Of a DNA stretch of 64,000 nucleotides, positions 34,676 through 38,558 are shown piece after piece (the stretch's first letter is position 1; every line of letters begins with the position of its first letter). The stretch is from the NCBI GenBank assembly GCA_016787485.1, contig JAEUUL010000004.1:62001-126000 (forward strand). Direction: 5' to 3'. Source of the stretch: Bacteroidota bacterium (lineage in GTDB: Bacteria; Bacteroidota; Bacteroidia; NS11-12g; UBA955). A model generated the notes under the pieces. That model was not told the DNA's origin. It searched no databases and saw nothing but the letters and a program-made list of their open reading frames with translations. The translations under genes were made by a program, and so were the position numbers.

Positions 34676-35113
34676 ATGAAATACATCGCTGGTATCTGTC
34701 TGTTCATTGCGGCCTGTGGCAATCCCAAACCCAATGAGGAAGTGACCCTGACCGGAAACGCAACCCAGGAATCCCTCAAACACAAACATTTTGAGTGGAG
34801 CCATTGGTCTGTAAAATCGCGGCAGGACAGCGTGCCTTTTCCAAACGGAAAACCAAGTCTGGATATGGGAGACAGCGGCCGTATGGGTGGATATACAGGT
34901 TGCAATCAGTTCACCGGTAAGTATTCCATGAAAGATGGCTCCATAACCATCAAGATTACCGGACAAACAAAAATGTTCTGCCTGCATGTGGCTGAAACAG
35001 AGCTCATTGACCATGCAGGGAAAGTGAACCGATACAAGTTTGCCGGCAATTCACTCACCCTTTATACCCCCGGCGGCGACAGTTCTGTTTGGCTGGAGAA
35101 ATCACGGAACTGA
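34676..35113 (+). CDS. META/HslJ-type lipoprotein
   Basis: The 145-residue protein has a lipoprotein signal (ICLFIAAC, C14) and a META domain with the diagnostic GYTGCNQFTGKY motif and a later IKITGQTKMFC strand, in which the two cysteines may pair. HslJ/META proteins are small envelope proteins linked to heat, novobiocin or other stress responses, without a known enzymatic activity. A weak -7-like CATCTTTG lies 5 nt before the ATG. The gene ends about 10 nt before the promoter of the candidate 6S-like RNA. Confidence 0.83.
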   Translation: MKYIAGICLFIAACGNPKPNEEVTLTGNATQESLKHKHFEWSHWSVKSRQDSVPFPNGKPSLDMGDSGRMGGYTGCNQFTGKYSMKDGSITIKITGQTKMFCLHVAETELIDHAGKVNRYKFAGNSLTLYTPGGDSSVWLEKSRN

Positions 35114-35121
35114 TTTTGGCC

Positions 35122-35129
35122 TATTTTTG
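35122..35129 (+). promoter_or_regulatory. -7 element TATTTTTG before the candidate structured RNA
   Basis: An exact TAnnTTTG match. A start about 5 nt downstream would fall on A35,134, the first base of the terminal stem of the RNA. Confidence 0.5.
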
Positions 35130-35133
35130 CGGC

Positions 35134-35320
35134 AAAGGGCCGGCCAAATTTGAAAAATTAACATCATTTCAATACCGGCTGAACCAAAGCAGTAAAACCA
35201 GGCTCATTGATCCGGCTTGTTCCGTGAGATTTTTACCTTGTGTAAAGACGTCAGAAGGTTGCGTTGCCGCGGAGGCCAAATCCTACTAACCAGGATTTTA
35301 CAAACTCCGGCCCTTTTTTT
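35134..35320 (+). ncRNA. Candidate structured RNA with 6S-like architecture
   Basis: The 5' bases AAAGGGCCGG (35,134-35,143) pair perfectly with CCGGCCCTTT near the 3' end, which runs straight into a T-tract. About 187 nt are enclosed. Inside, ACCGGC..AACC can pair with GGTT..GCC..CGG, GTAAAA with TTTTAC, and CTCA with TGAG, giving a long rod with internal loops. A small AAATCCT/AGGATTT hairpin sits on the 3' side. A closed terminal stem, rod shape, 3' side hairpin, about 185 nt and an intrinsic terminator are the features of 6S RNA, including the 6S-Flavo group of Bacteroidota. No open reading frame competes. A leader attenuator for the next small gene is the main alternative. Confidence 0.55.
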
Positions 35321-35337
35321 ATTTTTACATCCCCGAT

Positions 35338-35496
35338 ATGCCCATTTCACCCATCCGGATTCAGGAGCCCGCGCCATTGTTCCCGGCAAATGCCTGCATG
35401 CACACTCCACTGGGTTTTAGCCGCGGAAAGAAAAAGTGCTGTAAAAAATACAAGGACGGAAAACGCTGCAAGGATTGTCCGAAACGGAAACAATAA
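35338..35496 (+). CDS. Cys/Lys-rich small protein (52 residues)
   Basis: The frame encodes 52 residues. The last 25 are strongly basic with four cysteines in CC-x8-C-x2-C spacing (GKKKCCKKYKDGKRCKDCPK). Small proteins ending in this kind of motif recur in Bacteroidota genomes, and the cysteine spacing suggests a metal-binding knuckle; its function is not known to me. An internal ATG at 35,398 would give a 32-residue form containing only the conserved part. The gene starts 17 nt after the T-tract of the candidate RNA and ends 5 nt before the convergent asnS stop. Confidence 0.6.
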   Translation: MPISPIRIQEPAPLFPANACMHTPLGFSRGKKKCCKKYKDGKRCKDCPKRKQ

Positions 35497-35501
35497 GCTG
35501 C

Positions 35502-37016
35502 TCAGGGTTTCAACCTGCCGTACATTCTTGGGAACGGTATGCTCTCCCGCACGTGCTTCAGTTTGCACACCCAGGTTACCAGCCGTTCCAGTCCCAGACC
35601 GAAACCGCTGTGCGGCACGGAACCAAAACGGCGCAAATCCAGATACCATTCAAAGGCTTCCATAGGCAACTGATGCTCATTGATTTTTTCTTTGAGCATC
35701 TCCTCATTGGTTTCCCGTTCCCCGCCACCTACGATTTCGCCATACCCCTCCGGGGCCAACACATCCACACCGCGGGCGAACCGGGGGTCTTCCGGGTTGC
35801 GCTTCAGATAAAATGCCTTCACCTCATGCGGCCAATCGTATACCATGATGGGTGAATCAAAAAGACGGGTGATTACGGTTTCATCACTGCCACCAAAGTC
35901 ATTGCCATATTCAAAGTTGCGGGCACTGTTTATCCATTGGGGAATATTGCGGGCATCTTCTTCCAGGTCTGCCTTTTCCTGTTTCAGGCTATCGATTTTG
36001 CTCTGGAAAAAGTTGATCTCTCCCTTTTTCATCCCACCGGCTGCGATTTTTGCCTCACGGTCGGCGATTTCTGCATCCACTTCCTTTTGCCGGGCATGTA
36101 CCTGCTCCAGCTCTGCTTCCAGGCTACCAATGCCATTCACACCATTCACATCCTGCTCACCTTTGATGATCCGCACCGCCTCATCATAAGTAAGCCGCGG
36201 AAACGTTTTCAGGCTGCTTTGGAGCACCGCCGTGTCGCGGCCAATCATTTCCAGTTCGCGGGAACATTTCGCCAGCACATCTTTCAACACTGCATGCAAC
36301 ATTCCTTCAATGGCATCCATGTTTTGAAAAATATCAAAAAATGCCATTTCGGGTTCAATCATCCAGAACTCCGAAAGGTGGCGGCGGGTTTTGCTTTTTT
36401 CTGCGCGGAAAGTAGGGCCGAAAGTGTAGATGCGGCCCATGGCCATCGCCATCGCCTCACCATATAATTGGCCACTTTGGCTCAGATAGGCCGGGTCGCC
36501 ATAAAAATCGGTTTCAAACAGGGTGGATGTGCCTTCCACAGCATTGCCGGTAAAAATGGGAGAATCCATCTGCACATAGCCATTCTCCTGAAAATAGCGG
36601 TGAATGCTGTAAATAATCACATTGCGGATGCGCATGATGGCCCACTGCCGGGTGCTGCGCAACCACAGGTGCCGTTTGTCCATCAGGAACTCAACGCCAT
36701 GCTCTTTTTTCGCTATGGGGTAATTTTCGCTTTTACCTATCAGCTTCAAGGCGGATACATGTACCTCATGTCCACCGATTTGCTTTTCATCGCGCACGAC
36801 CATTCCGGTGAGTTCTGCGCTGCATTCCAGAGCCAGTTCCTGTGCTGTGGCAAGCCCGGTCTCCCCTGCGGTATCTGCAGTAATTACGCACTGACAATAC
36901 CCTGTACCGTCGCGCAGAATAGCAAAAACTATGCCTTTCCCCTCGCGTTTATTGGCAATCCAGCCGCGGAGAGTTACCTGTTGTCCCTCAAACTTGTGTA
37001 AATCCTCGATGTACAT
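35502..37016 (-). CDS. asnS: Asparaginyl-tRNA synthetase
   Basis: With the ATG at 37,016 the protein has 504 residues. It has an OB-fold anticodon-binding domain (VTLRGWIANKREGKGIVFAILRD cut at its ends), then the class II catalytic core with motif 2 FRAEKSKTRRHLSEF and motif 3 GFGLGLERLVTW near the C-terminus. It charges tRNA-Asn. Residues about 287-366 form a charged, coiled-coil-like insertion rich in Glu, Lys and Gln that the 466-residue E. coli enzyme lacks. The frame continues upstream to 37,178 but that part overlaps the divergent rpoN gene and is not used. Confidence 0.96.
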   Translation of the reverse strand: MYIEDLHKFEGQQVTLRGWIANKREGKGIVFAILRDGTGYCQCVITADTAGETGLATAQELALECSAELTGMVVRDEKQIGGHEVHVSALKLIGKSENYPIAKKEHGVEFLMDKRHLWLRSTRQWAIMRIRNVIIYSIHRYFQENGYVQMDSPIFTGNAVEGTSTLFETDFYGDPAYLSQSGQLYGEAMAMAMGRIYTFGPTFRAEKSKTRRHLSEFWMIEPEMAFFDIFQNMDAIEGMLHAVLKDVLAKCSRELEMIGRDTAVLQSSLKTFPRLTYDEAVRIIKGEQDVNGVNGIGSLEAELEQVHARQKEVDAEIADREAKIAAGGMKKGEINFFQSKIDSLKQEKADLEEDARNIPQWINSARNFEYGNDFGGSDETVITRLFDSPIMVYDWPHEVKAFYLKRNPEDPRFARGVDVLAPEGYGEIVGGGERETNEEMLKEKINEHQLPMEAFEWYLDLRRFGSVPHSGFGLGLERLVTWVCKLKHVRESIPFPRMYGRLKP

Positions 37017-37040
37017 ATGAATATGAATCTCCAAAAAGTC

Positions 37041-37048
37041 TAATTTTG
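37041..37048 (+). promoter_or_regulatory. -7 element TAATTTTG before rpoN
   Basis: An exact TAnnTTTG match, 46 nt upstream of the rpoN ATG, in the 78-nt space between the divergent asnS and rpoN genes. No TTG occurs at the expected -33 position. Confidence 0.4.
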
Positions 37049-37094
37049 TCGGAGAATTTGCAAAGTTAGCGCAAAGCACACGAAGCCGGAAAAA

Positions 37095-38558
37095 ATGAGT
37101 TCGCTGAAACAGCACCTGAGTCAAAAAATGCTGCAAAAATTGAGTCCGCAGCAAATACAGTTTATCAAGCTGTTGCAACTCAATACCCAGGATTTTGAAG
37201 AAAAAGTGGAGCAGGAGCTCCTGGACAATCCCGCCCTTGAGGACAATGGCCGCGAAGAAGCCGAGGAGGATATGTCATATGATGAGCCCGATGAATACAG
37301 TGATACAGACTACCTGAATGACGATGTAGACATCAACGACCTGCTGCGCGCCGGTGGTGGGGATGATGAGGGCAGCTTTCAACTGAATGAAGACTACAGC
37401 GGCGATGAAAGCCGGGAATTGCCCATTGCCAGTCAGGGCAGTTTTCAGGAATACCTGATGGAGCAGGCAAGAGCCACCTTTTTTAACGAGGAGGATATGC
37501 TGCTCGCCATCCACCTCATCAATTCCATTGAGGAAGACGGCTACCTGCGGCGCGAACTACGGAGTATCGTAAACGATCTGGCGTTTAATGAGAACATCAG
37601 CACGACCGAAGACCATCTGGAAAAGATTTTAATTAAAATCCAGAACTTCGATCCTGCAGGCATAGGTGCCCGTGATTTGCAGGAGTGCCTGCTGCTGCAA
37701 TTGTATAAAAAGGACTACGGCGACAATCCGGCCCTTACCCTGGCAGAAAAAATCATTTCTGAACAGATGGAAGCGTTCAGTAAAAAGCATTACGACAAAA
37801 TCAAACGCAGCCTGAAAATAGACGATGATCAACTTAAAGCAGCCATCGCAGAAATCGTAAAACTGAATCCCAAGCCCGGAGAATCCGGTGCTTCCAATAC
37901 CAAAACCCAGTACATCGTTCCGGATTTTACCGTTAGCAGCGAAGAGGACAAACTGCAGGTGAGGCTGAACAGCCGGAATGCGCCCGAACTGCGCATCTCC
38001 CAAAGCTACCATGAGACCCTGAAGGCTTACGAGCACTCCCACTCCAAGGACAAAAACCTGAAAGAAGCCGTGCAATACATCAAGCAGAAGCTGGATGGCG
38101 CCAAGTGGTTTATAGACAGCGTAAAACAGCGGCAGCATACACTGCTGAGCACCATGGAAGCCATTGTGCAGCGGCAACGCGAGTTTTTTGTGGACGGAGA
38201 CGAAACCTGCCTGAGACCGATGATACTGAAAGACATCGCCACACAGGTAGGCTTGGACATCTCCACCATTTCACGGGTAGCCAACAGCAAATACGTTGAA
38301 ACCGATTTCGGGATTTTTCCGCTGAAATACTTTTTCTCTGAGGGCATAACCAATGAGGAAGGTGAAGAGGTAAGCAACCGGGAAATCAAGAAAATACTGA
38401 GTGACGCCATCGGGGCAGAGCAGAAAAAGAAACCCCTGACCGATGAGGCACTGATGGAACTGCTCAAAGAAAAAGGCTATCACATTGCCCGCCGCACCGT
38501 AGCCAAATATAGGGAACAACTGAATATTCCCGTAGCCAGGTTGCGCAAGGAACTGTAA
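37095..38558 (+). CDS. rpoN: RNA polymerase sigma-54 factor
   Basis: The 487-residue protein has the three sigma-54 regions: the Gln/Leu-rich activator-contact region I (QHLSQKMLQKLSPQQIQFIK, near the N-terminus), an acidic region II rich in Asp and Glu (residues about 50-105), and region III with the core-binding and DNA-binding domains. It ends with the RpoN box (HIARRTVAKYREQL), which reads the -24 element. It directs transcription that needs an AAA+ enhancer-binding protein; no such protein is in the window. Confidence 0.96.
   Translation: MSSLKQHLSQKMLQKLSPQQIQFIKLLQLNTQDFEEKVEQELLDNPALEDNGREEAEEDMSYDEPDEYSDTDYLNDDVDINDLLRAGGGDDEGSFQLNEDYSGDESRELPIASQGSFQEYLMEQARATFFNEEDMLLAIHLINSIEEDGYLRRELRSIVNDLAFNENISTTEDHLEKILIKIQNFDPAGIGARDLQECLLLQLYKKDYGDNPALTLAEKIISEQMEAFSKKHYDKIKRSLKIDDDQLKAAIAEIVKLNPKPGESGASNTKTQYIVPDFTVSSEEDKLQVRLNSRNAPELRISQSYHETLKAYEHSHSKDKNLKEAVQYIKQKLDGAKWFIDSVKQRQHTLLSTMEAIVQRQREFFVDGDETCLRPMILKDIATQVGLDISTISRVANSKYVETDFGIFPLKYFFSEGITNEEGEEVSNREIKKILSDAIGAEQKKKPLTDEALMELLKEKGYHIARRTVAKYREQLNIPVARLRKEL

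Follow-up and report, generated by a model that had tools for sequence, protein, structure and literature searches.

Positions 35134–35320 of the forward strand of the window (the whole stretch of DNA analysed, 64,000 nt) are very probably the 6S RNA gene of the source genome, a Bacteroidota genome of 3.4 Mb in 41 contigs. 6S RNA is an RNA which occupies RNA polymerase as growth slows. As judged by sequence comparison, the window RNA is homologous to the 6S RNAs of Bacteroidota and represents a branch that reaches none of the Rfam thresholds. New is the unmodelled branch; already known are the 6S kind and its classical function. The result supplies 6S RNA for a large part of Bacteroidota where current Rfam models report none. 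An annotation gap is closed in this way and a testable switch model is offered, the function itself being classical.

The RNA was searched for with two covariance models. R1 was made from the sequences of 11 relatives and was built without any 6S family. The broader R2 includes three 6S-Flavo loci above or near the cut-off and is therefore independent evidence for Bacteroidales-1 only. The features of the locus are given below.

34676–35113, forward strand: META-domain protein gene, ending 20 nt before the RNA start
35122–35129, forward strand: predicted -7 promoter element TATTTTTG of the TAnnTTTG type, for the Bacteroidota primary sigma factor
35134–35320, forward strand: the very probable 6S RNA gene, about 187 nt; full-length R1 match, covariation, link to 6S-Flavo and Bacteroidales-1
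35134–35143, forward strand: closing stem P1, 5' strand AAAGGGCCGG; two-sided changes in 10 of 10 pairs, 94.5% of cells paired
35149–35159, forward strand: P2, 5' strand TTTGAAAAATT; two-sided changes in 8 of 11 P2 pairs, 90.6% paired; putative pRNA template region
35160–35176, forward strand: central bubble, 5' strand AACATCATTTCAATACC; no pairs here in the consensus, AAC(A) kept in most branches; putative pRNA start
35177–35203, forward strand: apical arm P3–P6, 5' strand with conserved AAAACCAGGC; 82–99% of cells paired per helix
35204–35246, forward strand: apical region, variable in length and sequence (alignments A1–A3)
35247–35277, forward strand: conserved GACGTCAGAAGGTTGCG and the P6–P3 3' strand (GCGGAGGCC), from the alignments and covariation
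35278–35298, forward strand: bubble 3' strand, or alternative 3' hairpin AAATCCT-ACTAACC-AGGATTT, exclusive with P2
35293–35304, forward strand: P2, 3' strand GGATTTTACAAA, from covariation and constrained folding
35307–35316, forward strand: closing stem P1, 3' strand CCGGCCCTTT, from sequence and covariation
35314–35326, forward strand: T-tract TTTTTTTATTTTT, predicted intrinsic terminator with P1 as the stem; overlaps the last stem bases
35338–35496, forward strand: 52-codon ORF, beginning 11 nt past the end of the T-tract
35502–37178, reverse strand: asnS, convergent, after the 52-codon ORF
37095–38555, forward strand: rpoN (sigma-54 gene), near the 6S gene together with asnS

In the earlier note the stretch was put forward as a 6S-like RNA that carries a promoter and a terminator of its own, and the elements on which this was based are present. 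The exact -7 element TATTTTTG was found at 35122–35129, the two ends pair perfectly over 10 bp, and the T-tract follows the closing stem, overlapping its last bases. The first T of the Bacteroidota consensus TAnnTTTG stands at -12 (PMC6847099); as the element begins at 35122, the transcription start is predicted at 35134, exactly where the 10-bp closing stem begins. In 38 of 63 loci the RNA is preceded by an exact TAnnTTTG at a distance of 10–14 nt, the shuffled mean being 0.6, and in the relatives the closing stem is followed by a T-rich tail. The predicted promoter of the gene is its own and of the sigma-ABfr type, and the closing stem doubles as the predicted terminator. No -33 TTTG element was seen at the right spacing in the window. 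The scan for generic sigma-70 promoters and terminators was uninformative, the promoter being of a different type and the stem of the terminator being formed by the long-range pairing of P1.

Another upstream pattern was observed at Flavo-type 6S loci (L072, L073, L076, L077, L079, L084, L086, L089, L093, L096), where TAnnTTTG is absent at the usual spacing. In several of them GTTCTTTA (or GTTCATTA) recurs some 40 nt upstream of the closing stem; this may be a further promoter or a regulator site.

The single-sequence fold of the window RNA was only modestly unusual (z = -2.4; 4 of 200 shuffles were equally stable), and it is the comparison with relatives over the 63 loci that sets the stretch beyond chance. 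A BLAST search in 57 relatives resulted in ten clear homologues; in nearly all of them the promoter, the closing stem and the T-tract are in register. The covariation alignment comprised 63 loci with 62 distinct sequences. The paired cells amounted to 91.5% compared with 71.2 ± 0.6% after shuffling and 50–58% with the partners slid by one column, and the two-sided changes to 518 cells versus 149 ± 15 after shuffling; since the alignment was fitted to a covariance model, these counts lean towards the model, the margins being nevertheless very large. At least one two-sided change was found in 32 of the 36 pairs.

The rod is composed, in order, of P1 (10 bp), an asymmetric loop, P2, the central bubble, P3–P6 and an apical region of variable length. 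P2 is an AU-rich helix in which UUUGAAAAAUU pairs with GGAUUUUACAAA, and the bubble has AACAUCAUUUCAAUACC as its 5' and AAAUCCUACUAACC as its 3' strand. The anatomy of the 6S class, i.e. a closing stem, a bubble and an apical arm within about 180–200 nt, is found here in 187 nt with helices that show covariation. No convincing conserved -7-like motif was noticed within the bubble when alignment A3 was inspected by eye.

A direct match to the known 6S families, by which the earlier note had wanted the candidate checked, was absent. RF01685 6S-Flavo (gathering cut-off 85 bits) matched neither the region nor the genome at E ≤ 10. RF01693 Bacteroidales-1 (60 bits) was likewise without a match, the limits being E ≤ 10 for the region and E ≤ 0.1 for the genome, and RF00013 6S/SsrS (46.4 bits) matched nothing in the genome at E ≤ 10. 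The Rfam scan of the region at the gathering cut-off and at E ≤ 10 returned only eukaryotic or viral families, which were implausible and scored at chance level. The Rfam models of RNase P, tmRNA and SRP RNA were included in those scans and gave no match.

The kinship to 6S-Flavo, a group named in the earlier note, and the 6S-like identity with it, emerged through intermediates, which tie the RNA to 6S-Flavo and Bacteroidales-1 in both directions, at the same positions and strands. In the blind genome-wide comparison, R1 and RF01685 coincided in place and strand at G277:C131, G244:C35 and G180:C6. In G289 and G213 the R1 and 6S-Flavo matches were at different places, and the 6S-Flavo side was weak. 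When 19 6S-Flavo loci were searched with R1, 10 were matched at the same place and strand with E ≤ 4e-4; L086, the only one of these ten above the Rfam 6S-Flavo cut-off, was matched with E 1e-4. The matches of Bacteroidales-1, a family annotated in Rfam with the words '6S-Bacteroidales RNA suggested', coincided with R1 in G277, G232 and G201. Of the five Bacteroidales-1 loci above the cut-off, R1 matched four in place (L130 with 2e-6, L133, L131 and L132; E from 2e-6 to 0.02) and missed L134, several of the R1 matches to Bacteroidales loci being weak, and R2 matched all five. It is this coincidence of R1 with loci of both families that shows the window RNA to be homologous to the Bacteroidota 6S RNAs. 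A single model, R2, joins the window branch with two families that have been catalogued separately.

Among the relatives, R1 found exactly one copy each in 46 of 108 genomes of the order and matched in 61 of the 395 genomes of the class; the corresponding number for R2 was 107 of 395. Of 198 genomes, 1 had an RF01685 match above the cut-off of that family, and 5 had one above the cut-off of RF01693. The gene is present once in the source genome according to the R1 search, and one copy per genome is the rule. Two copies were detected only in G184 (C3:61119-61303 and C7:46668-46853) and G153 (C37 and C93); these recall 6S-1 and 6S-2, the two 6S RNAs of B. subtilis, and contamination of the bins or a mixture of strains is possible. 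The carriers named in an exact-pattern search were MAGs labelled Bacteroidetes, Bacteroidia and Chitinophaga pinensis, and the label 'Chitinophagales-type', which rests on these record labels, is approximate.

A search with R2 under relaxed filters detected no copy at E ≤ 0.1 in 35 relatives, of which 34 belong to the same family and one to the same order; several of these genomes are nearly complete. For 20 of the 35, BLAST with a genus g13 query yielded no match longer than 22 nt. The missing copy is surprising for a housekeeping RNA, and may be due to loss, strong divergence or the preselection of the search. Within genus g13, the RNA was detectable in G012 and G021 and was not detected in G032, G075 and G084.

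No protein gene accounts for the spacer between the end of the META-domain gene (35113) and the start of the ORF (35338); the earlier statement that no gene explains the structure held. The same note had pointed to the orthologous spacer on the asnS side as a place to look for compensatory changes; such changes are abundant over the 63 loci, and the spacer itself turned out to be orthologous only in G010. When the neighbours at the relatives' loci were compared, asnS was located beside the RNA in G010 only, there also convergent, and no other neighbour of the window RNA was found. With the asnS spacer orthologous in just one other genome, the RNA appears to be a free-standing gene. The 52-codon ORF directly 3' of the terminator has a C-terminus rich in Lys and Cys (CCKKYKDGKRCKDCPKRK). 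Its relatives occur in 6 further genomes of the family, with a distribution that is not tied to the RNA; Pfam and NCBIfam searches with it resulted in no match.

That the structure is a chance palindrome or belongs to an unannotated small protein has a negligible probability. Open frames do cross the region and the z-score of the single-sequence fold is modest; this reading is nevertheless refuted by the covariation over the 62 distinct sequences, and the alignment has indels of all lengths and conserved non-coding motifs. A cis-acting leader, riboswitch or terminator element of the META-domain gene, the 52-codon ORF or asnS would fit the tight spacing, 20 nt on the one side and 11 nt on the other, as well as the asnS-adjoining copy in G010. 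However, the RNA has its own predicted promoter and terminator, the missing synteny at the relatives' loci speaks against such an element, and relatives of the 52-codon ORF occur in G007, G011 and G018, where the RNA was not found; a cis element is thus very unlikely.

The third possibility, to which a small but somewhat larger probability is given, is another kind of RNA, trans-acting or structural and confined to Bacteroidota, which would be a sequence homologue of 6S-Flavo and Bacteroidales-1 with a main job other than the inhibition of RNA polymerase. The Rfam note on Bacteroidales-1 indeed goes no further than a suggestion, and a copy is not detectable in many relatives. On the other hand, the rod, the bubble and the predicted 3' hairpin fit the canonical 6S anatomy, and in Bacteroides, namely B. 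thetaiotaomicron, 6S RNA and two classes of pRNAs are reported from RNA-seq (PMC7366714). The 6S RNA gene is consequently the preferred reading.

The 3' side hairpin reported in the earlier note is present in the sequence at 35278–35298 of the forward strand, though as a predicted alternative to the covarying P2 and not as part of one fixed fold: its 3' arm is the 3' strand of P2, therefore the two cannot coexist. The predicted P2 is better supported than the hairpin, as P2 has covariation. By energy comparison the local hairpin is a conserved alternative: in 49 of 63 loci its stability exceeded the mean of mononucleotide shuffles by 1 kcal/mol or more. It formed in 53 of the 63 loci with the 5' strand of P2 blocked, in 27 without constraint and in 3 with P2 forced. 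In the case of the window sequence, forcing P2 cost 8.8 kcal/mol of stability relative to the MFE. In E. coli and B. subtilis, the synthesis of pRNA makes 6S RNA refold via a hairpin or a central-bulge-collapse helix (PMC12005410), and by analogy the fold pair of P2 and the 3' hairpin resembles this pRNA-driven refolding of known 6S RNAs.

For the 6S RNA of the window the following course is conceivable. The rod, made of P1, the AU-rich P2, the central bubble and the apical arm, would mimic an open promoter, and with slowing growth the RNA would occupy the RNA polymerase holoenzyme with the primary sigma factor. When nucleotides are back, the polymerase would start on the 5' strand of the bubble, with the pRNA start expected near 5'-GUUAAUUUUUCAAA, and would copy P2 as a short pRNA. 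The pRNA would keep the 5' strand of P2, and the freed 3' strand could fold into the AAAUCC/GGAUUU hairpin, upon which the complex would fall apart and the polymerase be released. In a tentative generalization, to which a little under an even chance is given, the Bacteroidota 6S RNAs including the unmodelled branch would be one family built on a two-state switch between P2, with a 3' strand similar to the expected pRNA, and a 3' hairpin formed only on displacement of P2. The pRNA would replace its look-alike strand and so trigger the release, and some members of the same bacterial family would have lost the RNA or remodelled it beyond recognition.

In comparison with the known 6S systems, the window RNA shares with 6S-Flavo (RF01685) homologous loci, the AAC-bubble, the AGGC apical motif, a CAAAUCCU-like 3' bubble strand and the placement of P2. 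The P2 helix itself is AAACUC/GAGUUU in 6S-Flavo and AAAAAUU/GGAUUUU in the window RNA, which is a compensatory difference between the branches. In contrast to 6S-Flavo, the window RNA has a longer, hairpin-bearing apical part and TAnnTTTG immediately upstream, an element missing from the Flavo-type loci. With Bacteroidales-1 (RF01693) it has in common the overall rod, the closing stem and the 3' CAAAUC...GGAGUUU strand. The canonical 6S/SsrS RNAs (RF00013; E. coli, B. subtilis 6S-1) are similar in the length of about 187 nt, the closing stem, the bubble, the apical arm and a predicted hairpin opposite the bubble, such a hairpin being a canonical 6S feature (PMC8414754). Unlike in these, the promoter mimicry of the window RNA has to fit a sigma factor that recognises TAnnTTTG instead of TATAAT, and the structure backed by covariation provides a basis for asking how 6S mimicry does so.
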